28,459 nucleotides of DNA from a virus. Shown one piece after another: positions 1-28,235 of the stretch. Made by a program: the position numbers and the translations under genes. The notes under the pieces are model-generated. The model worked only from the letters and a program-made list of their open reading frames with translations. It was not told the origin of the DNA and ran no database searches. Where the stretch lies: positions 1 to 28,459 of IMG/VR virus record IMGVR_UViG_3300009702_000065; one strand, 5' to 3'. Numbering within the stretch: position 1 is the first letter of the stretch; each line of letters begins with the position of its first letter.

Positions 1-233
1 GAACCGTTAGGTACGCAAAACACTCTACCGTCAGGTAAAAGCACTCCTCCAACAAAAGCAGCCGCTCCAGGATAAGTGCCACTTGGTGTGGTTGTAAAAT
101 CTGCTGTAGGATAAGATAAAAAGCCCCTATTCCTAGCGGTGATAGTTCTTAAAATATCAGTTATTCCAATATCCTTTAGGTCTCCTGTAGAAGACGGCAG
201 ATTCTTAAATATTTTATCTGTAATATCAGCCAC
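1..233 (-). CDS. Kelch-like repeat tail protein, N-terminal part (runs off left edge)
   Basis: This is the 5' part of a minus-strand gene whose 3' end lies outside the window. The start chosen is GTG at 233, preceded by AGGA six bases upstream (inside the end of the upstream small gene). About 48 residues of unique N-terminus (beginning VADITDKIF) lead into a unit (SGTYPG, GGVLLPDGRVFCVP) nearly identical to the 44-residue repeats of the protein at 453-1565. It is therefore a paralogue of that protein with a different N-terminal adaptor. The repeat resembles a kelch/beta-propeller blade (GG pair followed by a YDP-type turn), and the position after the baseplate genes suggests a tail-tip or fibre role, possibly receptor binding. 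The function is inferred from context; the repeat relationship is seen directly. Confidence 0.75.
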   Translation of the reverse strand, partial: MADITDKIFKNLPSSTGDLKDIGITDILRTITARNRGFLSYPTADFTTTPSGTYPGAAAFVGGVLLPDGRVFCVPNG

Positions 234-236
234 AAT

Positions 237-440
237 TTATCCTATTAAGCTATCAGACCAATCATTCATGCTTTGTGGCATTCCCGCATCTTGATTAAAA
301 TCGGTTACCGTATTCCCTTGGTTACTGAGAATTTCGTTAACTAAGCTTTGATTTTCTTGATTTTTAGTAATTCTTATTTGAACTTTTCCGTTTTCATCGA
401 TGATTTCAATCATATTATTTGCATTTTTTACATTGGCCAT
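237..440 (-). CDS. Small hypothetical protein between two kelch-like genes
   Basis: This 67-residue protein begins at an ATG preceded by AAGGAAAACAAG, a good ribosome binding site, and ends with TAA four bases before the next start. It is hydrophilic, rich in Asn, Gln and Asp, with a central IRITKNQEN stretch. I see no signal peptide, membrane segment or cysteine motif. It lies between two paralogous kelch-like genes with almost no spacing, so it is probably co-translated with them and may be a chaperone or linker for the tip proteins. That role is only inferred from position; I do not recognise the family. Confidence 0.65.
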   Translation of the reverse strand: MANVKNANNMIEIIDENGKVQIRITKNQENQSLVNEILSNQGNTVTDFNQDAGMPQSMNDWSDSLIG

Positions 441-452
441 CTTGTTTTCCTT

Positions 453-1565
453 TTAAAGTTTATTTAAAAACCCAGAAAGTAATACTTGTCTTGGGAATTG
501 ATTTTCGTTGTTAAATTTACTAAAGTTACCTGAAAGTATTCTACTTGAGGTTGAACCGCTAGGTACGCAAAATACCCTACCGTCAGGTAAAAGTACTCCT
601 CCTTGAAAAGCACCTGCTCCAGGATAAGTGCCGCTTGGTATAGCTAGAGTATCAGTTACCGGATCATAAATTCTAGCGCTGGTTGAACCGCTAGGTACGC
701 AAAATACCCTGCCGTCAGGCAAAAGCACCCCTCCAGCAAAAGCATCCGTTCCAGGATAAGTACCGCTTGGTATAGTTAGGGTATCACTTACTGGATCATA
801 AATTCTAGCACTGGTTGAACTAAACGGTACGCAAAACACTCTACCATCAGGTAAAAGCACCCCTCCAATAAAAGCACTTGCTCCTGGATAAGTACCGCTT
901 GGCGTAGTTAGGGTATCACTTACTGGATCATAAATTCTAGCGTCGGTTGAATTACGCGGTACGCAAAATACCCTACCGTCAGGTAAAAGCACCCCTCCAT
1001 TAAAAGCAGTGCTTCCAGGATAAGTGCCGGTTGGTGTAGTTAGGGTATCACTTACTGGGTCGTAAATTCTAGCGCTGGTTGAATTTAATGGTAGGCAAAA
1101 TACCCTGCCGTCAGGTAAAAGCACTCCTCCAACAAAAGCATTGCTTCCAGGATAAGTGCCGGTTGGTGTAGTTAGGGTATCACTTACTGGGTCGTAAATT
1201 CTAGCGCTGGTTGAACCGCCAGGTACGCAAAATACCCTGCCGTCAGGCAAAAGCACGCCTCCTTGAAAAGCAGCCCCTCCAGGATAAGTACCGCTTGGTA
1301 TAGTTAGGGTATCAGTTACCGGGTCATAAATTCTAGCACTGGTTGAATTATATGGTACGCAAAACACTCTACCGTCAGGTAAAAGCACCCCTCCAATAAA
1401 AGCATCTGCTCCTGGATAAGTACCGCTTGGTGTGGTTGTACTGTCACTTATTGGAATATTTTTATTTTTTTCTGCAACATATTTAATTTGCTTAGTTAAA
1501 AACAAATTAGATCTATCTTCGGTTTCTATACTTTGTATAATTCCGCTTTCTATTCTTACTCTCAC
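453..1565 (-). CDS. Seven-repeat kelch-like beta-propeller tail protein
   Basis: The protein of about 370 residues has a roughly 40-residue N-terminus, then seven tandem 44-residue repeats, then about 25 residues of tail. Each unit has SGTYPG, two variable residues, AF, one variable residue, GGVLLPDGRVFCVP, two variable residues, STSARIYDP and DTL. The GG pair and the YDP-x-TDT turn fit a kelch-type blade, and seven units fit a closed seven-bladed propeller. Start choice: GTG at 1565 follows GGGGAG four bases upstream and overlaps the preceding TAG by one base (TAGTG); an in-frame TTG at 1577 is also open but lies upstream of that binding site. The gene follows the fibre-like protein in the tail operon, so a receptor-binding or carbohydrate-binding tip is likely. 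The propeller assignment rests on repeat pattern only. Confidence 0.8.
   Translation of the reverse strand: MRVRIESGIIQSIETEDRSNLFLTKQIKYVAEKNKNIPISDSTTTPSGTYPGADAFIGGVLLPDGRVFCVPYNSTSARIYDPVTDTLTIPSGTYPGGAAFQGGVLLPDGRVFCVPGGSTSARIYDPVSDTLTTPTGTYPGSNAFVGGVLLPDGRVFCLPLNSTSARIYDPVSDTLTTPTGTYPGSTAFNGGVLLPDGRVFCVPRNSTDARIYDPVSDTLTTPSGTYPGASAFIGGVLLPDGRVFCVPFSSTSARIYDPVSDTLTIPSGTYPGTDAFAGGVLLPDGRVFCVPSGSTSARIYDPVTDTLAIPSGTYPGAGAFQGGVLLPDGRVFCVPSGSTSSRILSGNFSKFNNENQFPRQVLLSGFLNKL
541..1440 (-). repeat. Seven tandem 132-bp coding repeats with fixed variable positions
   Basis: Near-identical 132-bp units lie head to tail within the kelch-like gene, and an eighth copy lies in the paralogue at 1-90. 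Differences between units concentrate at five codons. Two follow CCTGGA (for example GCA GAT, ACG GAT, AGC AAT, GGG GCT), one follows GCTTTT (ATT, CAA, GTT, AAT, GCT), and two precede TCAACC (TAT AAT, GGC GGT, TTA AAT, CGT AAT, TTT AGT, AGC GGT). The flanking codons change mostly at synonymous sites. Confidence 0.9.
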
Positions 1566-2554
1566 TACACTCCCCAAATTATATTTACGCTATTTGACTC
1601 ACCAGAATCTAAAATATTAGAATCATCAATCCACATATCAAACTTACTATAATTTCCATTAATAGTTAAATCGCCTAAAACTTTTAAATCTTTAAGATAA
1701 TTTTCATCACCGTTTACAGTAACGGTTCCTGATACTTGAGAGCCAGAGCCCTCTCCAATAAGCTTTATTCCAGAAGAAATTATTATATTTTCTGCAAAAG
1801 TTCTAGATAGTAATCTAACCTCTTTTACATTACCGGTACTATTTAAAGCATCCTGTATAGATGTATGGGTGGCAATTCCCATCGCAACATCACTAGTATT
1901 GCCAACGATAATAGAGCTTAATACTTTAAAATCTGTAAAGCTTAGATCCTCATCGTACATCAAACCTAAACCATTTAAATTAAAGGTATTCGTTGCTGTA
2001 ATTCTTACAAGTAGGCTGAGTTCTTTGTAGGATATCTGATAGCCAATAGAGTGTGTCGTTGGGGTCCAGCCAGAATCGAAGGCTTCTGCAAAATTAGATG
2101 CCGCTCCAGAATCTGATTCTATCGAAATAGATGTGGTAGAGGCTGCAAATACTGATTTATAATCACTATCGGTTTCAAAAACAAACCAGTAACTTCCAGA
2201 CTTAAGAACCTTTTTATATAAATCTACGGCAATGGTTCCTGCACTAAGATCCTGAATATTTAGTTGTGTCTCAAATAGGGTGCTCCCCGGATCTCCTGCA
2301 TTGTCTGCCGCTACTTTAACTGTCAAAAATCCAGTCGGAGAGCCGGTCTTTACAAGATCAAATTGTAATTTTGTTAAAACAGTTGGATTAGATAAAGTAA
2401 AGGGTTGAGCTAAAGATTTCTGTATTGTAGTATTTAATTCTAAGCTAGAATTATTACTGGGTATAGTACTAGTATCGGAGGGGGTTTCTTCTGCAAACTC
2501 CAACACACCGCTAAATTCGGTTGTGCTGTCGTTCCTGGTTAGATTAATCGCTTG
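1565..2554 (-). CDS. C-terminal part of fibre-like protein, reached only through an in-frame TAG
   Basis: This reading frame continues directly from the frame of 2555-5359 after its TAG, with no frame change: 16 sense codons, then GTG at 2506 and 313 more residues. I see no Shine-Dalgarno sequence before GTG 2506 and no other convincing start near the beginning, so independent translation is doubtful. The join reads as one domain: FEVSRDSATT, the stop, then QAINLTRND. This matches the common phage pattern of VSRDGGTTW followed by Q-x-x-x-LT, with the stop in the Trp position. The rest is beta-rich, with a likely jelly-roll half (PFTLSNPTVLTKLQFDL, GDPGSTLFET, SGSYWFVFE) and a C-terminal parallel-beta-like half (EVRLLSRTF, GIKLIGEGSGSQVSGT, LTINGNYSKFD). 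It ends TAG, immediately followed in frame by TGA. It could be a readthrough extension, a nonsense mutant or a sequencing error. Confidence 0.7.
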   Translation of the reverse strand, partial: QAINLTRNDSTTEFSGVLEFAEETPSDTSTIPSNNSSLELNTTIQKSLAQPFTLSNPTVLTKLQFDLVKTGSPTGFLTVKVAADNAGDPGSTLFETQLNIQDLSAGTIAVDLYKKVLKSGSYWFVFETDSDYKSVFAASTTSISIESDSGAASNFAEAFDSGWTPTTHSIGYQISYKELSLLVRITATNTFNLNGLGLMYDEDLSFTDFKVLSSIIVGNTSDVAMGIATHTSIQDALNSTGNVKEVRLLSRTFAENIIISSGIKLIGEGSGSQVSGTVTVNGDENYLKDLKVLGDLTINGNYSKFDMWIDDSNILDSGESNSVNIIWGV

Positions 2555-5359
2555 CTAGGTTGTTGCTGAATCCCTACTAACTTCAAAGGTAGCGTCTCCG
2601 TTTGTTGCCTGAGAATCTGAAAATACAGTAAGCTGTACAGATTTTGGATCTTTCTCCAAATCTAAAAAGGAAGAATCTATAAGGTCTATAGATTGAAATG
2701 TCTGTCCAACAGTGAAACCATAAACACCATCAACTAATTTAAAAGTAGCAGTTGTGTTTCCAGAATCGGTAAAATCTTCAGAATCGATAGAAAATATATC
2801 AGATGTTAAATAATTATATGAGGAATTATCGAACGAATCTCGTAAATCGATATAATTTTCATCTAAACCACTTGTAGCGCTTCCTCCTCCGCCTTGTCCG
2901 AAAACTCTAATATCAGATACTTCAATTGTTCCGCCATTATTAAAAACCTGAACGGCACCTAATTTTCTATTACCCGCTAATGCAGGTAATATTGCATTAG
3001 CTTTAACGGCACTAGAAGAAGAGGCGGAAGAAATTAATAACTGAGCGCTAATTTTGTTGTCAACCCCAACCGTAGAGGGAATTAGCGCTACCCCATACCA
3101 AAAATATTCATTAGACGGAACAGAAAAAGGCGTAAAATTAATTCCAAGCGCTGTTGAACCGTCTTCTTTTGTAATCGTACCGGTTGTAAAATCGATCACC
3201 GCTCCGGAAAAATCAACAACTAGACTATTCAATTGCTGGCTAAGAATTCGACCATCTAGGAGTGAAACATCAGACCCTGTAGATCTGACCTGATTGGCGT
3301 TTGATTCGTGTTGTGTTAAGCGAAATTGACCAAAATATCGGTTAATTTCTGCTAATGCACCCTCAAGTTCTAAACGCTCGATATATTGGCTATTACCCTT
3401 AAGTAAAAAGGTACCGTTTCCTACAAGAACGTCATTACCAACACGACGGGCAATGACTGTGCGATTTTTGGTGAGAGAAACCGCCGCAATATCACCGGTT
3501 GAAACGACAAGGTTTGCTGCGGCTCCGGATGTACGGTTAATGTCGACATAAGCTATTTGTCCATCAGCGCTGAGGACAATCGGGCTTTCGATAGAAAACG
3601 GAATTGTGTTTCGACTATTTGTAAGACCTGGAACCGATATATACGCATCAGCGGAAAAAGAAAGGGAGTTGTTGCCTAGATCCCAAGACCACGTACCTCC
3701 ACCAATTAATTTAGCATTATGGCTTTGGACGGTTTTATCAAGTTCTTTTATTGCCTTTGTAAGATTATCGGTGCTATCGGTAACGGCAATATTCGGTTGA
3801 GAATCTACGTCAGTTGCGAGATAATTAGGCTGAGAATCGGTTTCTCCAGTAGATCCCGCGTAGTTGAGAAGCCCGAAAGAAGTATTATCAGAAACTTCTC
3901 GTTTTTCGCCTTGTTCTAATTCTCCGCCAGAAGACCCTCTAATATAAATTCTAGGAGTGGCACCTCCATTATCAGCCCTTAAAAGTAACCAATAAATATC
4001 TTCTGTAAACGGTACATCTTTTCTATCAGCAATATGTACGTGCCTATCCGTTGAAGGGGAGGCCACTACTTGATATGATCCGTAAGCATATTTAGCCTGT
4101 ACACCACCAGAACCCGTAGAAGTATCCGCATATACTTCGGTTAGTGTAACGCTATAATGCATAGTTGGCTCTACTGTATCAATTTGATAGTATTTAGTGT
4201 CATTTTCAGATGCCACTTTAATAAAATCACCAGCTATTAAATCGGTTGTCCAGGGAACGCTCCCCACAGAAGTAACACCCGTAGAACCATTCGTAAAAAT
4301 AAGATTAGGAGTTATATCTACTCCACGTACAATATTTATGTAGGCTACTTCATTATCTACTAAAGTAAGATCTGTTCCTGGAACATCGTTAGAATCGATT
4401 CTATAAGATAATCTAGAACCTATAAAATTTAAATAAATATCAGAAGTCCAGTTAATTAGTCCTGGAGTGACAGAAGAGTGAATAAATTCTCCATTCCCTG
4501 TCATTTGTAATCTATCTAAATCGCCCTTTATCTTTAACAAAGAACCGGCGCTATTAAGCGAATACCAATACGGACCGCCTATAATCTCGACAAAACGAGA
4601 CATCATGGCGTCTGCCCATTCTTTAAATTGTAATAGCTGTTTATCACCACCATTAAATGGAGAGCTAGAAGAAGAAGTAGACTTCCAAAAGTTTTCTACT
4701 CTGCCTTCTGCATCATGATTCCAGGGGTAAACATAAAAAGGATTAGGGGTGGCTGATCCGGCAGTCCCTAATCTAAATAACATTGAACGCCGGTCTTCTA
4801 CGCTTATAACATTATTAGAAGCGTCCGTCTCTATAATAGCAATCGGAACAACGTTAGAACTCCAAACAGAAGAAGTAATAACCAATTGATAATTAAGGGT
4901 TTCTGATAATGGTATATTCTTACTAAACTCTATCTTACTTGCAGGGTTCCAAAAAAATACCTGAGAGGCGGTACTATTATCAATCGATCTCTGAAATTCA
5001 AATCCAACATAATTTATTGCACTTGGAGTAAACGATCCAGAAACATTAGTATTTACGTTAGAATTTAGAGTTTGATTGGGTTCAGAAGAGGGAATTTCAA
5101 AGAAAGTACCCGATTCATTAGAGGTACCGTGTAAAATTGCACTGTTGGCTACGATCATCTGCAAACTATTAGCAGAAGAATTAATAGCCCCAGTCATGTT
5201 TATTTTAAAACCTCTAATAATATAAGAAGAATTTTCTCCTATTAATAGAGATTTAGATAAATCATCAAAATCATTTCTTACAGCAGATTCTATAGAACGT
5301 ATATGTGGAACGTCTACTCTTTGCTGATTAAGCCAATTTTCTGATCTTTTTATTGCCAT
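2555..5359 (-). CDS. Large tail fibre or baseplate-peripheral protein, N-terminal 934 residues
   Basis: The ATG is preceded by AAAGGATAATA, a strong ribosome binding site. The N-terminus (KRSENWLNQQRVDVPHIRSIE) looks like an attachment segment, and it is followed by many Ser/Thr/Asn-rich beta repeats without cysteines, typical of a trimeric virion fibre or baseplate-peripheral protein. A central segment (QFKEWADAMMSRFVEIIGGP) recurs in my memory of large phage tail proteins, but I cannot assign it to a named family. The gene follows the small tail-tube-like protein by 59 bases and leads in frame, through TAG at 2555-2557, into another 329 codons; the full readthrough product would be 1264 residues. 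The TAG is the only in-frame stop across that length, which argues that the two parts were, or still are, one protein. Confidence 0.85.
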   Translation of the reverse strand: MAIKRSENWLNQQRVDVPHIRSIESAVRNDFDDLSKSLLIGENSSYIIRGFKINMTGAINSSANSLQMIVANSAILHGTSNESGTFFEIPSSEPNQTLNSNVNTNVSGSFTPSAINYVGFEFQRSIDNSTASQVFFWNPASKIEFSKNIPLSETLNYQLVITSSVWSSNVVPIAIIETDASNNVISVEDRRSMLFRLGTAGSATPNPFYVYPWNHDAEGRVENFWKSTSSSSSPFNGGDKQLLQFKEWADAMMSRFVEIIGGPYWYSLNSAGSLLKIKGDLDRLQMTGNGEFIHSSVTPGLINWTSDIYLNFIGSRLSYRIDSNDVPGTDLTLVDNEVAYINIVRGVDITPNLIFTNGSTGVTSVGSVPWTTDLIAGDFIKVASENDTKYYQIDTVEPTMHYSVTLTEVYADTSTGSGGVQAKYAYGSYQVVASPSTDRHVHIADRKDVPFTEDIYWLLLRADNGGATPRIYIRGSSGGELEQGEKREVSDNTSFGLLNYAGSTGETDSQPNYLATDVDSQPNIAVTDSTDNLTKAIKELDKTVQSHNAKLIGGGTWSWDLGNNSLSFSADAYISVPGLTNSRNTIPFSIESPIVLSADGQIAYVDINRTSGAAANLVVSTGDIAAVSLTKNRTVIARRVGNDVLVGNGTFLLKGNSQYIERLELEGALAEINRYFGQFRLTQHESNANQVRSTGSDVSLLDGRILSQQLNSLVVDFSGAVIDFTTGTITKEDGSTALGINFTPFSVPSNEYFWYGVALIPSTVGVDNKISAQLLISSASSSSAVKANAILPALAGNRKLGAVQVFNNGGTIEVSDIRVFGQGGGGSATSGLDENYIDLRDSFDNSSYNYLTSDIFSIDSEDFTDSGNTTATFKLVDGVYGFTVGQTFQSIDLIDSSFLDLEKDPKSVQLTVFSDSQATNGDATFEVSRDSATT

Positions 5360-13458: not shown

Positions 13459-16173
13459 TTATAACCTAGTCGAAAAAGTAATTGGAACTACTCCAGTATC
13501 GTTTGCTAGACTTATGACCATATCTACAGTTAGGGTGGGGGCTTTTAATGTAATATCTATCTTTTCTATAAAATCAAATCTATCGTCTGATTTAATCATT
13601 TGATTCATTTCGTCAATTATAATACCATTTTCAACATCTGCAACAGATATACCATAATTTATACCCAATCCAAAATCTAAATGTCTTAAAAGTGTTCCTT
13701 TTTTTGTTCTTATCTTCATTTTTAATGCTTGAACTAAATTAGTTAGTCCATTAGCTAAACGAAAATCACCAACCGAATTAATAGCTACATCAAAATTATC
13801 AGTTAATAAAAAATCTACTTTAGATATTTTAGTTAAATTAGGATTGTTTAGATTCGGTATTTCAAACGTTCTATCATCTAATTGAGCTGGTAAATTGACC
13901 GGTATATAAATTTGATTTTGGCTATTTACGGTTCCTGGTAAAAATCCTTTAACTTTAGCCTGATCTGATAGTGTTAATATATCTAAATTAGCCAATCCGT
14001 CTACCGTAATTAAATAATTATTATCTCCTATTTTTTCGATATCTGTAATTTTCCTACTAAAAGGTGGCACGATTAAAGATTGTAATATTATCTTTTGACC
14101 TACAAAAAACTGATTATTTGAGTTGTCTATATTGAATTGTCGCCCTTGAGCGTTAGATAATAGAGACAATTCAAAACCATCCTCATCAATATACGGTGAT
14201 CTTAAATTATTTAACGTAACGATTTCTATCCATTTATTAGAATCTTCTAAATATCTAGCTGCAATTTCTTCTATAGTTAAACCAAACGGTACTGGCTGCA
14301 ATTGTTTAGACGGGAAAGTTTCAAAATCAATACCTGCCTCATCTGCTAATCCGCCTACATATTCTAACGGATTTTCTATATTCAAATCATCATATTGTTT
14401 AGTGGCAATAAGCGCATCATAAGCCTGAATTGCATTAAATAATGATTCCATCACCTCGTTCTCCTGAACGCTTAATGGAACAGATCTTATCTTAGGGGTT
14501 TGAAGATTATAAATTTGGGCATAAGTAGAATCGCTAGCTCCATAATTGTTGGCAATATCATCTACTAATTTTAAGAGTTCTTGTCTATACTCTCTAAAAT
14601 CGTTTATGGTTAAAATCCTTACCTTAGCCAATTCTTCTTCAAATAGATCTTTTTGTTTAGGAGTTAAGGTAAGCGAATCTAATGAAATATTATCAAATAA
14701 ATCAAAATGCTCATTGGGATTATCAAATATATTATCTATCGGGTTTGTTTGAAGCTTTTGAATTGCAGCATCCCCTAATGCTCCATTTTCTATTTGATTT
14801 CTAGATAATCCTTCATTTAATCGTCTATTTGAAATTAAATCATTTATGGCACCTCCATCTTGAGCCCTCGCCCCTCCCTTAGCGGTTGATTGGGAGTCAC
14901 CTACTCCAGACGAATTTATTCCAGAAGTAGAAGCTGTATAGGGAGTTGTTTTAATTTGCGTATTAAAATAATTTTTATTAAAAAGTGAATTTTCTATTGT
15001 TGATTTATAATCTGCAACAAGCTGTTTTGGTAAATCCGAAGCGGTACGGCTTATGTCGGCTCCATCTTTAATTGCCAAAGTGGTCTGCCTTATAATGTTC
15101 CAAATATTATGTTGAAAATCACCCCTAACGGCCTTAAGCAGATTATTGGCTGAAGATAGAGTACTTCTAGTAGCCCCTAAAGTTCTAACAATATCCTGAT
15201 AAAGGTCGGTAGTTATAGTAGGCAGATTATTAGTTGCCGCGTTAGGCGTTGCCTTTAGATCGATTCTATGCCATGCCTTTAACTGTGCACTAAACAGCAT
15301 TTCATTTGGTTTTTGTTGGCTTTGGTTCATAGAAAAGGAAATCGGAGAAACCACAAATGATTGATTTTGTTTAGGTATATCGAATACCAATCTTAAATTA
15401 TTATTATTAGGGTCTTTTTTTAATTCTGCATATCTTTCAAGAAATTGTCCTAAAAACATGGCCTGCCAATATCCGGTAGAAAACTCTCCTGCGTTGGTTT
15501 TGCCCGGCTCGTCTGCTTTAGGGGGTGAATTGGCATGTTTCCCTTGAGCAACGTTTAATACATTATTAACATTTCCAATAAAACTAGTTGCGGCCTGTAG
15601 TGTACCACCAAAAACGCTACCTATATTCCTACCTATCTTACCCGCTAACGTAGTCGGATTGTTAATTGAACCAGCTATAGTAGGTTTTTTAGGCCATATA
15701 CCGGTAGTACCAGACATATTTATCATTTTAAATTTAACACCGTTGTGTTCTTCAACTACGCCTCTCATAGTAGCTGATAAGTTGATAGCAAATCGATCTT
15801 GTATCTGTAATTGTTGAGGGGTGATGGGTAAAACCATTTCCCATTTACCAGCTTCATTATATTGAGTAATTATATATTCTATACCGCTTTGCGCTGTTTT
15901 ACTATTGGCAACATTACCCTTAGAACTAGCCTTCCCGGTTAATATTTTTCTGCCGCCACCCGTAACATCTACTACCAACAATCTATAAGGGTAGAGTTTA
16001 TCCCATCTATCAGATTTAATATCTATAGGTGGCCAAAATATTTCATTTTTATTGATTTTAGGATCGACAGACCACGGAAGACCCGCAGAACCACCCAAAC
16101 TAGTGGGTTTATTATCGATCCCTAATAAGTCTTTATTGATAAAATTGTTAATATTAGTTAATAAATTAGCCAT
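13459..16173 (-). CDS. Composite baseplate protein: LysM/gp53-like region plus gp25-like C-terminus
   Basis: The protein has 904 residues and is the first gene of the leftward structural run. Residues ~1-320 are a beta/helical region with GGRKILTG and QSGIEYIITQYNEAG, of unknown fold. The middle is helical and Asn/Gln-rich. Residues ~625-700 (PVPFGLTIEEIAARYLED, KWIEIVTLNNLRSPYI, then VGQKIILQS) look like a LysM-type fold as in T4 gp53 baseplate proteins. Residues ~785-904 (LANGLTNLVQALKMKIRTKK, LRHLDFGLGIN, IDEMNQMIKSDDRF) match the gp25/lysozyme-related wedge family (GPW_gp25). In T4, gp53 and gp25 are separate wedge proteins, so this appears to be a fusion. No clear Shine-Dalgarno precedes the ATG. 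Family assignments come from pattern recall, with gp25-like the surer of the two. Confidence 0.82.
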   Translation of the reverse strand: MANLLTNINNFINKDLLGIDNKPTSLGGSAGLPWSVDPKINKNEIFWPPIDIKSDRWDKLYPYRLLVVDVTGGGRKILTGKASSKGNVANSKTAQSGIEYIITQYNEAGKWEMVLPITPQQLQIQDRFAINLSATMRGVVEEHNGVKFKMINMSGTTGIWPKKPTIAGSINNPTTLAGKIGRNIGSVFGGTLQAATSFIGNVNNVLNVAQGKHANSPPKADEPGKTNAGEFSTGYWQAMFLGQFLERYAELKKDPNNNNLRLVFDIPKQNQSFVVSPISFSMNQSQQKPNEMLFSAQLKAWHRIDLKATPNAATNNLPTITTDLYQDIVRTLGATRSTLSSANNLLKAVRGDFQHNIWNIIRQTTLAIKDGADISRTASDLPKQLVADYKSTIENSLFNKNYFNTQIKTTPYTASTSGINSSGVGDSQSTAKGGARAQDGGAINDLISNRRLNEGLSRNQIENGALGDAAIQKLQTNPIDNIFDNPNEHFDLFDNISLDSLTLTPKQKDLFEEELAKVRILTINDFREYRQELLKLVDDIANNYGASDSTYAQIYNLQTPKIRSVPLSVQENEVMESLFNAIQAYDALIATKQYDDLNIENPLEYVGGLADEAGIDFETFPSKQLQPVPFGLTIEEIAARYLEDSNKWIEIVTLNNLRSPYIDEDGFELSLLSNAQGRQFNIDNSNNQFFVGQKIILQSLIVPPFSRKITDIEKIGDNNYLITVDGLANLDILTLSDQAKVKGFLPGTVNSQNQIYIPVNLPAQLDDRTFEIPNLNNPNLTKISKVDFLLTDNFDVAINSVGDFRLANGLTNLVQALKMKIRTKKGTLLRHLDFGLGINYGISVADVENGIIIDEMNQMIKSDDRFDFIEKIDITLKAPTLTVDMVISLANDTGVVPITFSTRL

Positions 16174-20802: not shown

Positions 20803-21864
20803 CTATATTTTGGTAAATTGATTATTGGTGGGTCTAATACGTTTCGTTATATAATGATCTAACCGCTCCATATTGTTATCAAAAACAGAAAACATAGCTG
20901 GAAGATGCCTAACTTTATCAGCGTGCAATGCTATATTCTTCTTTATATTTTCGGATTTTGAGAATTTACTTATAATAGAATTATATTCTGTAGTTATTTC
21001 CTTATAAAGATTTCTATATTGTCTCTCTAAAGCACAAGATATATTTTCTGCCCTTTCCCTAAATTCTTCAGGCGTTTTAATAATTATTTCGATAGGAATC
21101 TTACCGTTCTTCATTTGTTTCCAAAAATCTAATGGAGTTAAATGGGCCAATAAAGAGGCTATTTTTAAATATTCTTCGGATTTAAACTTAACCCTATATC
21201 CATCTTCAAACCTAACTACCACGCCCTCCTCCTTAAAAGACAAGTTTTTTTGATAATTCATCACCTCTTCTATGGTTTTAAATTTAAATTTCTTAGGAAC
21301 GGGAATTTTAGTTTTACTATGAATATTTAATAAAGTTGTACTATCCACTTCTTTTTTTGTAGTTACATCATATGCAGTTAATAATACTAATCTTCTTTCT
21401 TTCCCGTAATCTATAACTATCCTATTTTCAGGATATATAATTTCTACTAAAATTGTATACTTTTTGTCAATCTGAGATAAATCATATTGTTTTAATATTT
21501 TCTGTCCTTCTATAGTCTGGTCTGAATTAAAGCTACCTCTTGTATTTACCTTCCATTTATTGTTATAATTAAAAATTATACCTAATGAACCATCTACCTT
21601 TTCCAATACTTCAAAGTTCTTTTTCTTCATTAAGAGGCGTGCCTTAGAAGTGCTTAATTCAGAAAAATTAAAAAACTTTGGAAAGGATTTAGCTATTAGC
21701 TTCCCATTAAGGTCGTATACATTTCCACGAGAGTTAATAGTATATTTATCCCAATGCTTAGAATAGACACACTTTTTTGTATAATTATACAATATTAAAT
21801 CTTCACTTTGTGATTTACTTAAAAAACCACTCTTAACTAAATTGTTTAGTTTTTTTAAATTCAT
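20803..21864 (-). CDS. rnlA: T4 Rnl1-type RNA ligase
   Basis: This nucleotidyltransferase of 353 residues (T4 Rnl1 has 374) shows motif I EKVDGSLGI with the adenylated Lys at residue 89, an upstream element SRGNVYDLNGKLIAKSFPKF typical of Rnl1, motif III-like TILVEIIYPENRIV, motif IV EEGVVVRF and motif V VKFKS. The C-terminal ~120 residues are helical and replace the Rnl1 tRNA-recognition domain. It joins 5'-phosphate and 3'-OH RNA ends with ATP. Its ATG overlaps the lipoprotein gene's TAA (TAATG), and the end-healing kinase/phosphatase lies one gene upstream: the classic pair for repairing tRNA cut by anticodon nucleases. Confidence 0.95.
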   Translation of the reverse strand: MNLKKLNNLVKSGFLSKSQSEDLILYNYTKKCVYSKHWDKYTINSRGNVYDLNGKLIAKSFPKFFNFSELSTSKARLLMKKKNFEVLEKVDGSLGIIFNYNNKWKVNTRGSFNSDQTIEGQKILKQYDLSQIDKKYTILVEIIYPENRIVIDYGKERRLVLLTAYDVTTKKEVDSTTLLNIHSKTKIPVPKKFKFKTIEEVMNYQKNLSFKEEGVVVRFEDGYRVKFKSEEYLKIASLLAHLTPLDFWKQMKNGKIPIEIIIKTPEEFRERAENISCALERQYRNLYKEITTEYNSIISKFSKSENIKKNIALHADKVRHLPAMFSVFDNNMERLDHYITKRIRPTNNQFTKI

Positions 21865-22121
21865 TACTTTATTTGTAGATTAAATTTGGATAAAAAATTA
21901 TTTACAGCGCCATTAGCACACGCATTCAGTGTATCCTCTGAAGTATTAACAGACATCGTAGATTTACACAAATCATAAAAAAACTGAGTAAGGGTATCTA
22001 GGTTAATGCCTAGATTTACTTCTATAGGATTAGTAGGCCCTTCTACCTGAACTTTGTAGGGACCACAACTAGTAGTATACAAACCCAATAGAATTAAAAT
22101 AGAAATAATCTTCTTAGACAT
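21864..22121 (-). CDS. Small probable lipoprotein between RNA-repair genes
   Basis: The start chosen is ATG 22121, which overlaps the upstream TAA (TAATG) and has an excellent ribosome binding site GGAGG; an ATG seven codons earlier lies inside the kinase gene. The 85-residue product has a basic-hydrophobic signal (MSKKIISILILLGLY) and TTSC with Cys at residue 19, a weak lipobox. The mature part contains two more cysteines (DLCKST, LNACAN). It could be an outer-membrane lipoprotein, for example a spanin-like or superinfection-exclusion factor, but no family is recognised and its presence within an RNA-repair operon is unexplained. Confidence 0.75.
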   Translation of the reverse strand: MSKKIISILILLGLYTTSCGPYKVQVEGPTNPIEVNLGINLDTLTQFFYDLCKSTMSVNTSEDTLNACANGAVNNFLSKFNLQIK

Positions 22122-23008
22122 TAAAAACCTCCATCGGCACATTGTAAAACGTTATAACCATGCGATCTCCACATATTTACAACTTGAGTTCTATCGTCAA
22201 CTATGAATAGTATATCATATCTCGTTTTTAATTCAAACTCTAAAATTATTTCTTTCACAATACTGTCTTTTCTATAGTCCATACGCATTCTAGTAAATAA
22301 ACGTGACCCTGCAAACATTAAACCGTTTTGACTTAACCATTTTAACGTTACATCCCGATAATCTGCAGGTCTAGCCGTAACAAATACTACCCTATGTCTT
22401 TCTGATATACTTGTCAACAACTCTTTACACCAATAGTTAACCGGGTCTTTGTCCATATCTTTAAAGAATAAATCCCAATCGGTCTTGTTTGGCTTTATAT
22501 ATTTAAGACGATGATCGGTATTGGCAATAGTACCGTCAATATCACAAACAATAATCTGTTCTGTGTCTTTACCGGCCCATCCTAGTCTAATCACCTCATC
22601 AGCTTCTTGATCTTCTACCCTCCAATAATAATAAAAAAAGTGATCAATTGCTTTAATCGCTGTCTCTTTATCCTTTATACTAGGGTGGTTTTTTCTATTA
22701 ATCACTCTATCTAAACATACTTCGTAAGGAGTGTGGAATACAACTATACGAATTTCATATTTTTTTTGTCTAGCAGGGTTAATATATCTATTGCGTTGTT
22801 TTTTAGAAAAGTTCATTCTATCAACAACAATGTCGTATTTTTTTGATAAAGCATCCTTGAATTTTTCTAAATGTAATTCTGATCCCTGAATATCCTGATT
22901 AATATAGACTAAATCATTTCTGTTATTGTGGGTTTTTAAATAATCTTTAGCCCAAGTAGTTTTTCCAGACCCTGGTGGGCCTACAAGAAGAGTTAGCAGC
23001 GGATTCAT
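22121..23008 (-). CDS. pseT: Polynucleotide kinase / 3'-phosphatase (T4 Pnkp type)
   Basis: The 295-residue protein (T4 Pnkp 301) has the N-terminal kinase P-loop VGPPGSGKTTWA (K16), followed by VVDRMNFSKKQR and a lid region with Arg/Lys. The C-terminal HAD phosphatase has DIDGT (D156, D158), FVTARPADYRD, and VDDRTQVVNMWR with the acidic motif-IV pair. The enzyme phosphorylates 5'-OH and removes 2',3'-cyclic or 3' phosphates, making ends ready for RNA ligase. The start ATG overlaps the upstream zinc-finger gene's TGA (ATGA). Together with the Rnl1-type ligase one gene downstream and the tRNA just upstream, it is most likely part of tRNA repair against host nucleases. Confidence 0.96.
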   Translation of the reverse strand: MNPLLTLLVGPPGSGKTTWAKDYLKTHNNRNDLVYINQDIQGSELHLEKFKDALSKKYDIVVDRMNFSKKQRNRYINPARQKKYEIRIVVFHTPYEVCLDRVINRKNHPSIKDKETAIKAIDHFFYYYWRVEDQEADEVIRLGWAGKDTEQIIVCDIDGTIANTDHRLKYIKPNKTDWDLFFKDMDKDPVNYWCKELLTSISERHRVVFVTARPADYRDVTLKWLSQNGLMFAGSRLFTRMRMDYRKDSIVKEIILEFELKTRYDILFIVDDRTQVVNMWRSHGYNVLQCADGGF

Positions 23009-23265: not shown

Positions 23266-23294
23266 TATATACCTCAAAATGTTATTTATGTCAA
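23266..23294 (-). promoter_or_regulatory. Promoter for tRNA and RNA-repair operon, nested in ankyrin stop codon
   Basis: TTGACA (23289-23294) and TATATA (23266-23271) are 17 bases apart on the minus strand. The TGA inside TTGACA is the stop codon of the ankyrin gene at 23291. The predicted transcript start falls at about 23259, next to the tRNA 5' end. Confidence 0.75.
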
Positions 23295-24010
23295 GCGGCT
23301 GATTTAAGATAATTGACAACATCTTGATGGCCTTTTTCTGCCGCCCAACACAGAGCTAAATCATCCCTAGCATGAATATTGGCTCCACTTTTGAGAAGGA
23401 ATTTGACGACATTTAATTGGCCATATTCTGCAGCTAAACATAAAGCATAATCATTATCAGCATGGATATTGGCGTCATTTTTTACAAGAAATTTAACGAC
23501 TTTTAGACGGCCATATCTTGCAGCCAATTGCAAAGCTAAATCATCTTCAGCATGGATATTGGCGTCATTTTCGACAAGAAATTTAACGATATCCAGATGG
23601 CCACCCGCTGCAGCCCAACGTAGGGCAGCATCATTATAAGTATGAACATAAGCGCCGTTTTCAACAAGGATTTTAACAACATTTGAATGGCCATATTCTG
23701 CAGCCAAACGCAAAGCATAATCATCTTCGGCATGAATATCAGCTCCATTTTCGATAAGAACCTTAATGACATCTAGACGGCCATATTGTGCAGCCCATTG
23801 CAAAGCTAAATCATTTTCGGCATGAATATCGGCTCCGTTTTCAACAAGAAATTTAATGACATCTAGATGGCCATGATATGCAGCCAAACATAGAGCATAA
23901 TCATTATCAGCGTGGACATTAGCGCCTTTTTTAATGGCTTCTTTTACGGCAGATAATTGTCCAAGTCGAGAAAATTCAATTAGTATATCGTTTAGTTCAG
24001 TTTGGTTCAT
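23291..24010 (-). CDS. Ankyrin-repeat protein, six full 30-residue repeats
   Basis: The 239 residues divide exactly into a 32-residue N-cap (TELNDILIEFSRLGQLSAV, then KEAIKKGANV), six 30-residue ankyrin repeats beginning HA, with D-x-ALxxAAxxGHLDVxKFL and ENGADI cores, and a 27-residue C-cap ending KSAA. The 30-residue period, shorter than the usual 33, is the form I recall from giant amoebal viruses. Ankyrin folds bind other proteins; the target is unknown, with host effectors or a eukaryotic partner both possible. It starts after its own promoter (24035-24063) with GTGAGAT as a mediocre binding site, and ends at the -35 box of the tRNA promoter. Confidence 0.9.
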   Translation of the reverse strand: MNQTELNDILIEFSRLGQLSAVKEAIKKGANVHADNDYALCLAAYHGHLDVIKFLVENGADIHAENDLALQWAAQYGRLDVIKVLIENGADIHAEDDYALRLAAEYGHSNVVKILVENGAYVHTYNDAALRWAAAGGHLDIVKFLVENDANIHAEDDLALQLAARYGRLKVVKFLVKNDANIHADNDYALCLAAEYGQLNVVKFLLKSGANIHARDDLALCWAAEKGHQDVVNYLKSAA

Positions 24011-24034: not shown

Positions 24035-24063
24035 AGAATAGCAAAAATAAGGGGTAATGTCAA
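24035..24063 (-). promoter_or_regulatory. Promoter for ankyrin gene 23291-24010, nested in upstream ankyrin stop
   Basis: TTGACA (24058-24063) and TATTCT (24035-24040) are 17 bases apart. The -35 box contains the TGA of the ankyrin gene 24060-24869. The downstream leader (TGTATTTAG, then GTGAGATAAAA) is shared with the sequence at 27941 onward. Confidence 0.75.
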
Positions 24064-24869
24064 GCGGCTAATTTAAGATAATCAACAATATCTTGATGGC
24101 CGAATTCTGCAGCCCAATGCAGGGCTAAATCATCTTTAGCATGAATATTGGCACCGTTTTTTACAAGAACCTTAATGACATCTAGATGGTCATTTGCTGC
24201 CGCCAAACGTAGTGCATAATCATTATGAGCATGGATATTGGCTCCGTTTTCGACAAGAAATTTAGCAACCCTTAGATGGCCATTTTGTGCAGCCCATTGC
24301 AGCGCACCATCATCATCAGCATGGATATCGGCTCTATTTTTGATGAGAATTTTAACGATATTTAGACGGCCATTGTGTGCAGCCCAACACAAAGCATAAT
24401 CACCACCAGCGTGGATATCAGCGCCGTTTTCAACAAGGACTACAACGACCTCTAGATGGCCATATTTTGCAGCCACGCGCAGAGCTAAATCATCACAAGC
24501 ATGGATATCGGCTCCGTTTTCAACAAGGACTTTAACGACTTTTAGACGGCCATATCTTGCAGCCAATTGCAAAGCTAAATCATTGACAGCGTGGATATCA
24601 GCGCCGTTTTCAACAAGGACTACAACGACATCTAGATGGCCATATTTTGCAGCCACGCACAGAGCTAAATCATCACAAGCATGGATATCAGCTCCATTTT
24701 CGATAAGGAGTTTAAGGACATTTAGGCGGCCATATCTTGCAGCCAATTGCAAAGCTAAATCATTGACAGCATGGATATCAGCTCCCTGTCTAATAGCCTC
24801 TTTGACGGCAGACAGTTGGCCAAATTCAGAGAATTTAATTAGTATATCGTTTAGTTCAGTTTGAGTCAT
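24060..24869 (-). CDS. Ankyrin-repeat protein, seven full 30-residue repeats
   Basis: The 269 residues divide exactly into a 32-residue cap (TELNDILIKFSEFGQLSAV, then KEAIRQGADI), seven 30-residue repeats and a 27-residue C-cap ending KLAA. Repeats 1-2 and 3-4 are near copies (HAVNDLALQLAARYGRL, then HACDDLAL with AAKYGHL), from a 180-bp tandem duplication. It has no signal peptide, so it is cytoplasmic unless secreted by another route. Its start ATAGGATAAAACTATGAC is shared with the ankyrin gene at 27966. Here, however, the TAG is the stop codon of the preceding coiled-coil gene, so this copy is joined to the ClpP-like operon rather than having its own promoter. Binding partner unknown. Confidence 0.9.
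   Translation of the reverse strand: MTQTELNDILIKFSEFGQLSAVKEAIRQGADIHAVNDLALQLAARYGRLNVLKLLIENGADIHACDDLALCVAAKYGHLDVVVVLVENGADIHAVNDLALQLAARYGRLKVVKVLVENGADIHACDDLALRVAAKYGHLEVVVVLVENGADIHAGGDYALCWAAHNGRLNIVKILIKNRADIHADDDGALQWAAQNGHLRVAKFLVENGANIHAHNDYALRLAAANDHLDVIKVLVKNGANIHAKDDLALHWAAEFGHQDIVDYLKLAA
24421..24780 (-). repeat. 180-bp tandem duplication inside ankyrin gene
   Basis: 24421-24600 and 24601-24780 align without gaps, with 11 differences that I counted by eye. Each unit encodes two 30-residue ankyrin repeats, so the duplication keeps frame and repeat phase. Confidence 0.9.
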
Positions 24870-25108: not shown

Positions 25109-25690
25109 TTATTTGTTTACAACAACATCCCATCCATAAAATGGAACCATTTTTATACTACATATTTCATCAATTATATTAAGTTTTTTAGCTTGATTGG
25201 CACTTAAATATATTTCATGCCCGATAACTTTTTCTTTAATGAGCCTTCTAATATCAGAAGCCCCCTTCAATCCCATAGATTTAGCCAAAATATGCATCCA
25301 TTTTTTATTTATTGCACGTAAATATTTTACATTATTTTCTATATCTTTTATGTCTCCAAACGCTGCCGCTTGAATTTCATGAATCATAATATCTGCTTGT
25401 GGAGAGGCATATCTATAACCCGGAGTACCTGCAGAAGCCAATAAAATAGCACCTGCACTCATCGCCTTAGATGATGTATAGGTAACTACAACTCTATTTA
25501 GATTTTTAATTCTATCATAAAGAGTAGCTAGACCGTGTACTGCACCACCATAAGAATCGATATGAACCACAATAGGCTGACTGGCCGGGTAATCCGATTC
25601 TATTTTATCTATTTGTTTTAAAGTGTCTCTTACAGCCTCTTCCTTAAAAGAATTAATCCATATTAAGGGTTTGTGATTTTCTACCGACAT
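25109..25690 (-). CDS. ClpP-like serine protease
   Basis: The start chosen is ATG 25690 after AAAGGAATTCTT, a good ribosome binding site; the frame is open ten codons further up. ClpP/crotonase-fold features: IVVHIDSYGGAVHGLATLYD (oxyanion glycines near residue 48), AMSAGAILLASAGTPGYR with Ser78 as probable nucleophile, and ADIMIHEI with His104. The third catalytic position, Asp in ClpP before FLSA, aligns with Glu159 in HEIYLSANQAKKLNIIDE. Length of 193 residues is typical. It lies away from the structural genes, so a role in head maturation is not evident; it may replace or modify host Clp proteolysis. No ATPase partner gene is seen in the window. Confidence 0.88.
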   Translation of the reverse strand: MSVENHKPLIWINSFKEEAVRDTLKQIDKIESDYPASQPIVVHIDSYGGAVHGLATLYDRIKNLNRVVVTYTSSKAMSAGAILLASAGTPGYRYASPQADIMIHEIQAAAFGDIKDIENNVKYLRAINKKWMHILAKSMGLKGASDIRRLIKEKVIGHEIYLSANQAKKLNIIDEICSIKMVPFYGWDVVVNK

Positions 25691-25700
25691 AAGAATTCCT

Positions 25701-25898
25701 TTATTTGTTGAAGCCTTCATTCCTTAGCTTTATGTATTGATTTAATAAGCAACTACTATTTTTTATATTTTTAAAAACATTAGGATGTATAATTTTTAAT
25801 TTTAACAAAAAGCTTACAGGAGAACTATACGTTAAAGAATTTAAATATTTTTCTAAATGTATTTCTTTTGCTTTAATCCAGTTTTTATTGGTAACTAT
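25701..25898 (-). pseudogene. Open frame without a start codon, possible gene remnant
   Basis: From 25898 a frame of about 65 codons (VTNKNWIKAKEIHLEKYLN, then SPVSFLLKLKIIHPNVF) stays open to TAA at 25701. A strong AAAGGAG stands just upstream, but the in-frame codons after it are ATA GTT, with no ATG, GTG or TTG nearby. A second frame just upstream (QQNWKEYQNYIDRVIKGDA, then TAG) overlaps the same binding site. The two may be parts of one gene broken by a one-base change, or a gene starting at AUA. The gap between 25690 and 25971 holds nothing else that I can identify. Confidence 0.3.
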
Positions 25899-26843: not shown

Positions 26844-27173
26844 TTAAAAATTCCAATTAAAATAGACCGACTGTATATTTCTATTTAAATTTACAGATAG
26901 CGAGGGTCTTAATCCGTTATTTTTTAAAATCTTATAATTAAAGTTTTTATTCTGTATGCTGTTAACTATAACACCACTAATAAATAAAAAATTCTTACTG
27001 AAGCCGTTTAAAAGTATTTTTTTACTATTATTTTTAATATAATTATCGGTTTTATCTAAAAAATCTTTTGATTTTAGTTGTATACTCGTAGCTTCTAGTG
27101 TTTTCTTACACATGTTTTTGTTTATATTAGACAAATAAAAACATGCATGACTTATCAACAATACGTTAAGCAT
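26844..27173 (-). CDS. Exported hypothetical protein, last gene of PagL-like operon
   Basis: The ATG overlaps the TAA of the PagL-like gene (TAATG). The N-terminus (MLNVLLISHACFYLSN) is a weak signal-like segment, followed by a Lys-rich helical part (CKKTLEATSIQLKSKDFLD). The end (LRPSLSVNLNRNIQSVYFNWNF) alternates polar and hydrophobic residues and finishes in Phe, as outer-membrane strands do. It may be an envelope protein working with the PagL-like enzyme. No family is recognised. Confidence 0.6.
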   Translation of the reverse strand: MLNVLLISHACFYLSNINKNMCKKTLEATSIQLKSKDFLDKTDNYIKNNSKKILLNGFSKNFLFISGVIVNSIQNKNFNYKILKNNGLRPSLSVNLNRNIQSVYFNWNF

Positions 27174-27625
27174 TAAAAATCTAAATAATATTCCATTAAA
27201 ATAAAATTGCGTCCCTTATTAGGGCTGCTTAATCCAGCATTACTGTAATGTCTCATAGAGATTCCTATATTTTTATAGCCTAGAGATATTTCTTCTGTAA
27301 ATTCAAAAGCGCTCGAAAGATATTGATCTACTCCAGTAACAATAGAACCTCCCATTTGACCCTCTACCCAATAGCTAGAAATCCGTTTTCTTAATCCTAA
27401 CGAATATTGTTCATAATAAGAATTTTTTGAATTCTTCTTATTGTCTACCCAGTAACCCACTTCAGCATTTTGAAAAAAGAACGGAGTAGTATAGTGTCGA
27501 TAAGATAAAGAATAAACTGCTACATTTTTATTAGATTGAAATATCCCCGAACCTAATTTAACTGCAACATTTGCCTTAACGGGTAAGGAACCTAATAATA
27601 ACATTAAGTAAAAAAAAATTTTCAC
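27173..27625 (-). CDS. pagL: PagL-like lipid A 3-O-deacylase (outer-membrane beta-barrel)
   Basis: The 150-residue protein has a clear signal peptide (MKIFFYLMLLLGSLPVKANV) and alternating beta strands ending in YYLDF, typical of an outer-membrane barrel. RHYSNAGLSSPNKG matches the PagL active-site segment: H126 and S128 in an H-x-S-N-A-G context. The position of the catalytic Glu of Pseudomonas PagL is Asn140 here, as I recall also for many relatives annotated acyloxyacyl hydrolase; Glu145 is the nearest acid, so activity is uncertain. A working enzyme would trim the 3-O acyl chain of lipid A, changing the cell surface and perhaps blocking further adsorption. The start is GTG 27625, overlapping the upstream TAG (TAGTG), after GGGATAAA. 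Confidence 0.8.
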   Translation of the reverse strand: MKIFFYLMLLLGSLPVKANVAVKLGSGIFQSNKNVAVYSLSYRHYTTPFFFQNAEVGYWVDNKKNSKNSYYEQYSLGLRKRISSYWVEGQMGGSIVTGVDQYLSSAFEFTEEISLGYKNIGISMRHYSNAGLSSPNKGRNFILMEYYLDF

Positions 27626-27940: not shown

Positions 27941-27969
27941 AGTTTAGCAAAATTTTAATGCAATGTCAA
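27941..27969 (-). promoter_or_regulatory. Ankyrin-type promoter now leading into the PagL-like operon
   Basis: TTGACA (27964-27969) and TAAACT (27941-27946) are 17 bases apart. The spacer AAAATTTTGC and following TGTAT are shared with the promoter at 28259. The next 25 bases contain GTGAGATAAAA, as before the ankyrin gene at 24010, but no ankyrin start follows. A second -10-like TATAAT at 27886-27891 lies closer to the operon. Confidence 0.7.
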
Positions 27970-28235
27970 GCGGCTAATTTAAGATAATTAACAATATCTT
28001 GATGGCCATATCTTGCAGCCCAACGCAAAGCTAAATCATCACAAGCATGGATATCAGCCCCGTTTTTGAGAAGGAATTTAACGATATCTAGATGGCCATA
28101 TTCTGCAGCCCAACACAGAGCTAAATCATCTTTGGCATGGACATTAGCTCCCTGTCTAATGGCCTCTTTGACAACAGATAACTGACCAAATTGAGAGAAT
28201 TTAAGTAGTATATTATTTAGCTCAATTGGAGTCAT
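27966..28235 (-). CDS. Minimal ankyrin-repeat protein, one full 30-residue repeat
   Basis: The 89 residues divide exactly into the family's 32-residue cap (PIELNNILLKFSQFGQLSVV), one 30-residue repeat and the 27-residue C-cap ending KLAA. It is a contracted or primitive member of the same family as the genes at 23291, 24060 and 28284. ATG follows ATAGGATAAAACT with AGGA as binding site. Its own promoter is at 28259-28287. So few repeats may still fold because both caps are intact; it may otherwise serve as a donor for recombination. Confidence 0.85.
   Translation of the reverse strand: MTPIELNNILLKFSQFGQLSVVKEAIRQGANVHAKDDLALCWAAEYGHLDIVKFLLKNGADIHACDDLALRWAARYGHQDIVNYLKLAA

Follow-up and report, generated by a model that had tools for sequence, protein, structure and literature searches.

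The window analysed here, an entire virus record of 28,459 bases, encodes a seven-bladed propeller protein that is probably a phage tail receptor-binding domain, diversified by blade-to-blade gene conversion and selection. In the proposed mechanism, one face of the tail propeller, with 35 variable residues (five in each blade), would bind the host surface. Recombination within the gene and between neighbouring propeller genes, by gene conversion and unequal crossing-over, would keep the blade frameworks similar, and diversifying selection would keep and spread different residues at the five face positions. Since each conversion tract carries one to several variable positions, blades and faces would be reshuffled with the fold intact, and since seven blades are needed to close the ring, the array length would be nearly fixed. 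Whole propellers would also be swapped between phages at the tail locus. This reading draws on computed results, namely the predicted fold, the five positions, the selection pattern, the concerted evolution, one clear conversion tract, the swapping of alleles and modules, and the absence of the marks of a diversity-generating retroelement (DGR).

The propeller gene, the variable codons of its blades and the two neighbouring genes on one side are located as follows.

453..1565, minus strand: seven-bladed propeller protein, 370 aa; GTG start at 1565, TAA stop
1347..1409, minus strand: variable codons of blade 1, at 1407-1409 and 1404-1406 (D-A loop), 1395-1397 (strand A), 1350-1352 and 1347-1349 (B-C loop)
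1215..1277, minus strand: variable codons of blade 2, at 1275-1277, 1272-1274, 1263-1265, 1218-1220 and 1215-1217
1083..1145, minus strand: variable codons of blade 3, at 1143-1145, 1140-1142, 1131-1133, 1086-1088 and 1083-1085
951..1013, minus strand: variable codons of blade 4, at 1011-1013, 1008-1010, 999-1001, 954-956 and 951-953
819..881, minus strand: variable codons of blade 5, at 879-881, 876-878, 867-869, 822-824 and 819-821
687..749, minus strand: variable codons of blade 6, at 747-749, 744-746, 735-737, 690-692 and 687-689
555..617, minus strand: variable codons of blade 7, at 615-617, 612-614, 603-605, 558-560 and 555-557
3..233, minus strand: paralogous propeller gene, start at 233, truncated at the contig end behind its first half-blade (GTYPGAAAFVGGVLLPDGRVFCVPNG)
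237..440, minus strand: small gene of 67 aa between both propeller genes, without a family

The propeller protein consists of an N-terminal anchor of about 41 residues, seven blades of 44 residues and a conserved C-terminal tail ending LLSGFLNKL. The blades are seven units of exactly 44 codons, each beginning GTYPG, with the consensus GTYPGxxAFxGGVLLPDGRVFCVPxxSTSARIYDPVSDTLTTPS. The framework nucleotide identity between the window blades is 0.893, and it reaches 0.987 in relatives; the window gene thus has the near-identical blades within one propeller that define highly repetitive beta-propellers. An eighth, truncated blade copy sits in the paralogue at 3-233 (minus strand), which is a potential blade donor or recipient. 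Relatives carry a second propeller gene at the matching position.

The original prediction described seven units plus one in the paralogue, with a nearly invariant framework and five freely varying codons. The blade comparison confirmed this description with minor framework variation: substitutions are seen at a small number of framework residues (T/S, I/T and S/T close to the D strand, a single V/L and a single S/D), and about a dozen framework codons differ synonymously between blades. The residue sets quoted for the five sites (e.g. AD/I/YN, GA/Q/GG) are correct. In the window blades, 19 of the 25 extra amino-acid states fall in the five columns, and none of 200,000 random scatterings put as many states in any five columns. 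When 61 representative independent relatives were compared with the window excluded, the same five columns ranked 1-5 for between-blade differences within one protein (0.61-0.88, against 0.48 for the next column). These results indicate that the pattern belongs to the family as a whole, since it was predicted from a single member and found again in the others; it is also stronger than originally described. Four-gamete tests between the variable sites gave few violations, with few blades per gene. At two loci (L055, L067), the blades of a single gene differ in D-A loop length, by one to three codons.

It had also been noticed that several variable codons are of the form NNT or NNC. All eight codons at the second site (GAT, GCT, AAT, ACT, AGT, GAT and GGT, and GCT in the paralogue) and all eight at the last site (AAT, GGT, AAT, AAT, AGT, GGT and GGT, and GGT in the paralogue) are indeed NNT. 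However, sites 1, 3 and 4 hold some codons ending in A or G (GCA, GGG, ACG, CAA, TTA), and thus the rule is not general. At the fifth site only N, S or G is used in the window. The choice of amino acids (N, S, D, Y, H, F), together with the silence of third-base changes there, accounts for most of the NNT/NNC look.

AlphaFold2 was run on 44 native sequences, and strands were assigned by DSSP. The model (pLDDT 93.6, pTM 0.91) shows seven blades of four antiparallel strands around an axis, with an identical strand set in each blade, as in seven-bladed Kelch-like propellers; the N-terminal strand 42-44 would complete the last blade. The structural matches found by Foldseek and VIA are propellers, including SAKe designs, KEAP1, galactose oxidase and streptogramin lyase, with E of 2.5e-15 for the PDB matches and VIA Z up to 29.5. 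None of the Pfam Kelch models matched the propeller protein at E<=1, and 'Kelch-like' refers here to fold and motif only. Sequence families were also tried as a source of the fold; the Pfam and PHROGs matches were many, weak and short, none passed alone, and they were taken as repeat noise.

In every blade, two variable residues lie in the D-A loop, one is the second residue of strand A, and two lie in the B-C loop. In an antiparallel up-down blade, the same side carries both loops (D-A and B-C) and the beginning of strand A. According to the DSSP assignment and strand order, the five positions should therefore lie on one face. The earlier idea of a fixed scaffold with a variable face is thus supported by the predicted fold, the strand placement and the blade comparison: the variable residues of the modelled propeller cluster on one face by topology, and as far as topology tells they are not in the core, four of the five sites being in loops.

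Viral contigs were scanned twice, yielding first 35 and later 75 loci, the best retained out of 111 that encode a relative. About 110 viral contigs encode propeller relatives, whereas in a scan of 84,980 prokaryote species genomes a single locus was confirmed, which lies in a Planctomycetaceae assembly. The family is thus almost entirely viral, within the reach of pattern scans. Among sequenced phages, only weak propeller matches were detected, in Cylindrospermopsis and Vibrio phages. According to the blade profile, 60 of the 73 ORFs judged complete have seven blades. All contigs of the relatives are metagenomic assemblies, in which repeats may be collapsed or chimerised. Nine contigs end inside the propeller array (L031, L032, L035, L087, L095, L098, L112, L157, L160). 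Such ends are expected where repeats or mixed alleles break assemblies, and blade counts below seven should therefore be distrusted. Arrays of 2-6 blades, such as the two-blade L158, are probably products of assembly collapse; natural blade loss was set aside as their origin, since L158, L062 and others are among the most homogenised genes. Blade shuffling between L060 and L062 resembles unequal crossing-over, and was also set aside because of likely assembly collapse.

The framework nucleotide identity between blades is 0.778 within one protein, whereas between proteins it is 0.642 for blades of the same index and 0.641 for blades of different index. Thus, the blade index carries no signal. 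The nearest blade is located in the same protein for 210 of 323 blades and in a paralogue of the same phage for 37 more (247 of 323). In one phage (L027), the three propeller genes share a framework (TALTSGG...ASNGK IYDPVTNTQT) unlike those of other phages. The relatives therefore show concerted evolution both within and between loci.

Exchange tracts were identified in relatives. The records IMGVR 3300044941_000368 and 3300045921_000781 show nine differences over 32,201 aligned bases, all within 57 bp of the first propeller gene. One version of the 57-bp tract is contained in a stretch of 77 bp that is matched exactly by a blade of the next propeller gene, and the tract alters two variable sites (columns 12 and 15) together with framework bases. 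In the case of L006 and L008, the blades differ by 3 bases within 30 bp, and a 67-bp exact donor is present in another blade. A unit gain was observed in L074, where two of the eight blades are identical. The main caveat is that chimeric assembly could, in principle, have produced the 57-bp tract. The exact repeats involved are 67-77 bases long, and collapse in assemblies is evident for arrays whose blades are more similar, such as that of L158. A search for more alleles of the L038 group returned only the known two records. With the fibre gene as query, no near-identical relative of the window was found; conversion and allele swapping are therefore documented in the relatives and not in the window phage. 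The proposal that blade recombination reshuffles the propeller gains support from the within-protein similarity and the conversion tracts of these relatives.

A recent amplification of a single blade, followed by relaxed constraint that left the face positions free to drift, would also produce similar blades, and new propellers do arise by single-blade amplification (PMC9218822). However, seven blades are kept across relatives with about 64% framework nucleotide identity, and yet the similarity within each protein is higher and the index is free of signal. Since this similarity is found in every phage, one amplification is insufficient to explain it, whereas ongoing exchange could do so.

The substitutions at the five codons also bear on this alternative. 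Values of pN and pS were obtained by pairwise counts over related blades (a counting method, not a likelihood model) in 69 representative proteins, with 493 within-protein blade pairs from 49 proteins. In these pairs, pN is 0.43 at the five codons vs 0.044 in the framework, and pS is 0.36 vs 0.26. The window blades behave similarly, with pN of 0.62 at the variable codons vs 0.046 in the framework, and pS of 0.40 vs 0.26. As silent change is about equal and amino-acid change is tenfold higher at the variable codons, diversifying selection explains the pattern better than targeted mutagenesis. The pN/pS ratio is 2.2 at column 15, 1.6 at column 12, 0.88 at column 30 and 0.59 at column 31. Some variable columns, such as 30 and 31, could thus be relaxed instead of positively selected, and ratios near or below 1 are what drift after amplification would leave. 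Columns 12 and 15 exceed 1, however, and changes of several bases are present in the variable codons where silent sites are unchanged. Drift after a single amplification is therefore unlikely as the main explanation. The counts indicate diversifying selection at a small, fixed set of positions in each repeat on the presumed binding face, with the face assigned by topology.

In seven homogenised phages (L062, L060, L012, L074, L055, L067, L097), framework pS is 0.01-0.04 and variable pN is 0.26-0.50; the values are 0.010 and 0.278 in L062, and 0.017 and 0.379 in L055. At the variable codons of the most homogenised relatives, the third base deviates in 5%, and positions 1 and 2 deviate in 24-31%.

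The surroundings of the propeller gene point to the tail. The relevant genes of the window are the following.

1565..5359, minus strand: putative tail fibre gene, upstream of the propeller; an in-frame TAG at 2555-2557 splits it into ORFs of 934 and 313 aa
7489-13455, minus strand: Baseplate_J-like protein
13459-16173, minus strand: baseplate protein with phrog_975 at the C-terminus, 28% identical over 94% of its length to a Myxococcus phage Mx1 protein

The first 267 residues of the putative fibre gene product match Myxococcus phage Mx1. Six relatives have TGG (Trp) at the codon aligned to the TAG at 2555-2557 (minus strand), and their frames read through; the TAG may be a nonsense change, recoding or a sequencing error. 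Stop-codon recoding is not favoured, because TAG ends 7 of the 28 listed ORFs. In relatives, the propeller is fused to N-terminal parts of a minor tail protein (PF05939 below cut-off, phrog_14), a tail fibre (phrog_3100, phrog_19602) or a collar fibre (phrog_25620). A setting among tail genes, or fusion to tail domains, is typical of phage receptor-binding proteins, and the predicted tail location is borne out by the baseplate and fibre neighbours and by these fusions.

The window contains other genes outside this region. Three paralogous ankyrin-repeat genes (23291-24010, 24060-24869 and 27966-28235, minus strand; a Pfam Ank match for the first) have very regular repeats (IHAxxDxALxxAAxxGHxxVVKxL), and may represent another homogenised repeat family in the same phage. 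A PagL-like lipid A deacylase domain (PF09411) is encoded at 27173-27625 (minus strand), and would fit a phage that infects a Gram-negative bacterium. RNA ligase, polynucleotide kinase-phosphatase with P-loop and Clp-protease-like genes are located at 20803-23008 and 25109-25720.

Whole propellers are exchanged in a group of relatives (the L056 group), in which a 316-aa gene product is identical in three phages and is followed by the propeller. Between L050 and L056, the blades differ by 20.2% and the rest of the overlap by 1.16%. The propeller is not the hot spot of divergence in all near-identical pairs: in L018/L020, L007/L041 and L007/L042, the propeller blades are more conserved than other stretches. 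The slot of the L056 group has the same start (MRTSTRMVVL or MRTSTKVVVL), followed by the propeller or by an unrelated module, with related genes upstream and downstream. The alternative modules match virion structural protein phrog_10356, tail protein phrog_5939 or families without known function. The slot downstream of a homologue of the 316-aa gene was also observed at L110, L113, L118-L120, L122, L128 and L132, with a near-constant N-terminal anchor. Judged from these sequences, the slot appears to be a natural library of exchangeable tail modules with several unrelated C-terminal types. An exchangeable C-terminal module behind a conserved anchor is thus present in these relatives, and not in the window. 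Module exchange behind a constant anchor is the behaviour of tail receptor-binding modules.

The adjoining baseplate and fibre genes would also agree with a variable face directed not at a host receptor but at a different virion protein or a small ligand, and varying together with it. However, the neighbouring tail genes are almost unchanged between phages in which the propeller differs by 20%, so that no co-varying partner is seen nearby, and the slot accepts unrelated modules. We consider such a partner quite improbable. We infer that the ligand of the face is a receptor on the bacterial surface, and that variation of the face changes host range.

The rewriting of the five codons from a template by a DGR or a similar element, the second route offered in the original prediction, is very improbable. 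The homogenised phages do keep the third base while positions 1 and 2 change, like the NNT/NNC codons left by mutagenesis of AAT/AAC, and their framework silent change is near zero. However, third-base constancy follows from silent changes not being selected. Among fourfold-degenerate third-position adenines of the most homogenised relatives, only 2 of 418 deviate; an adenine-directed retroelement would also alter such silent adenines, and thus this mutagenesis is not supported. Across the family, variable and framework codons are about equally diverged at silent sites, and the allele differences observed are conversion tracts in which framework bases are changed as well. A reverse transcriptase (RVT_1) was detected in none of 48 contigs (the window and 47 related contigs, including contigs of 217, 147, 140, 123 and 119 kb), while three control genomes were positive. 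A template repeat, or any blade-like DNA outside the propeller genes, was absent from the loci examined. The recommended search thus gave neither element in the related contigs or in the window, a record that is not a complete genome. As contigs may be fragments, the absence of the enzyme is not proof; the substitution pattern is independent of contig completeness. In the original prediction of a receptor-binding propeller reshuffled by blade recombination or targeted mutagenesis, the propeller, its tail location and recombination therefore stand, mutagenesis does not, and binding is presumed from the tail context.

Under gene conversion with selection, the variation probably lets the virus track changing bacterial surfaces without reverse-transcriptase machinery. 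It is conceivable, and we propose it tentatively, that this is a widespread phage-specific system of receptor variation free of reverse transcriptase, in which repeat genes and their paralogues archive each other and conversion rewrites a ring of 35 residues, possibly favoured by phage recombination machinery. If so, phages would have a second general solution for variable tail binding surfaces besides DGRs, namely a repeat scaffold that evolves in concert while diversifying selection acts on a fixed codon set. The parallel with a fungal allorecognition system of unrelated role would suggest a general design rule for propellers. The five codons per blade would be a testable read-out of host-range evolution in uncultured phages, and the propeller would be a natural scaffold with mapped variable positions.

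Among known systems, the T-even gp38 tail-tip adhesins have a conserved scaffold with hypervariable loops at the receptor-binding tip. Their diversity is due to the exchange of whole loops, and their fold is unrelated to that of the phage propeller, in which repeat blades are exchanged. A gp38 structure is the subject of PMC12892980. In the open-access literature, no papers on phage propellers with hypervariable blades were found; most subscription journals lie outside this scope. The survey of highly repetitive beta-propellers by Pereira and Lupas in 2022 (PMC9218822) mentions viral members. Such propellers resemble the present family in having near-identical blades in one propeller. In its accessible part, the survey treats such blades as amplification products, and contains no phage tail family, fixed variable codons or conversion tracts. 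In KLHL20, the D-A and B-C loops shape the substrate face of the Kelch propeller (PMC6720452). Kelch propellers (KEAP1, KLHL20, galactose oxidase and the designed SAKe proteins) are among Foldseek's strongest structural matches, whereas their sequence identity is mostly 14-24%, and the phage blades are shorter, with short B-C loops.

Mtd of phage BPP-1 is a DGR-diversified receptor-binding protein with a C-type lectin fold, a reverse transcriptase and a template repeat. The DGR-diversified receptor-binding proteins that include the tentaclins (PMC10743442) are similar to the present family in the fixed scaffold, the variable binding residues and the tail location, but use the lectin fold, the enzyme and the template, none of which was found here.

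The HNWD genes of Podospora anserina (het-d, het-e, het-r) encode propellers of near-identical WD repeats, which evolve in concert within a locus and across loci. Diversifying selection acts on four positions of each repeat on the binding face, and gene conversion between repeats was proposed for observed mutants (PMC1805685, PMC2873952). The phage family resembles them in its homogenised propeller repeats, its exchange within and between loci, and its few selected codons per repeat on the predicted face. In contrast, the HNWD proteins are fungal NLR proteins (NACHT and WD40) of non-self recognition with a variable number of WD40 repeats, whereas the phage proteins are tail proteins with Kelch-like blades of 44 aa, five variable positions, a blade number fixed near seven and no NACHT domain. 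With its short N-terminal anchor and phage tail context, the window protein lacks the HET/NACHT and WD40 make-up of the fungal family. As domain make-up and role are unrelated, the likeness lies in the mode of working and not in membership.
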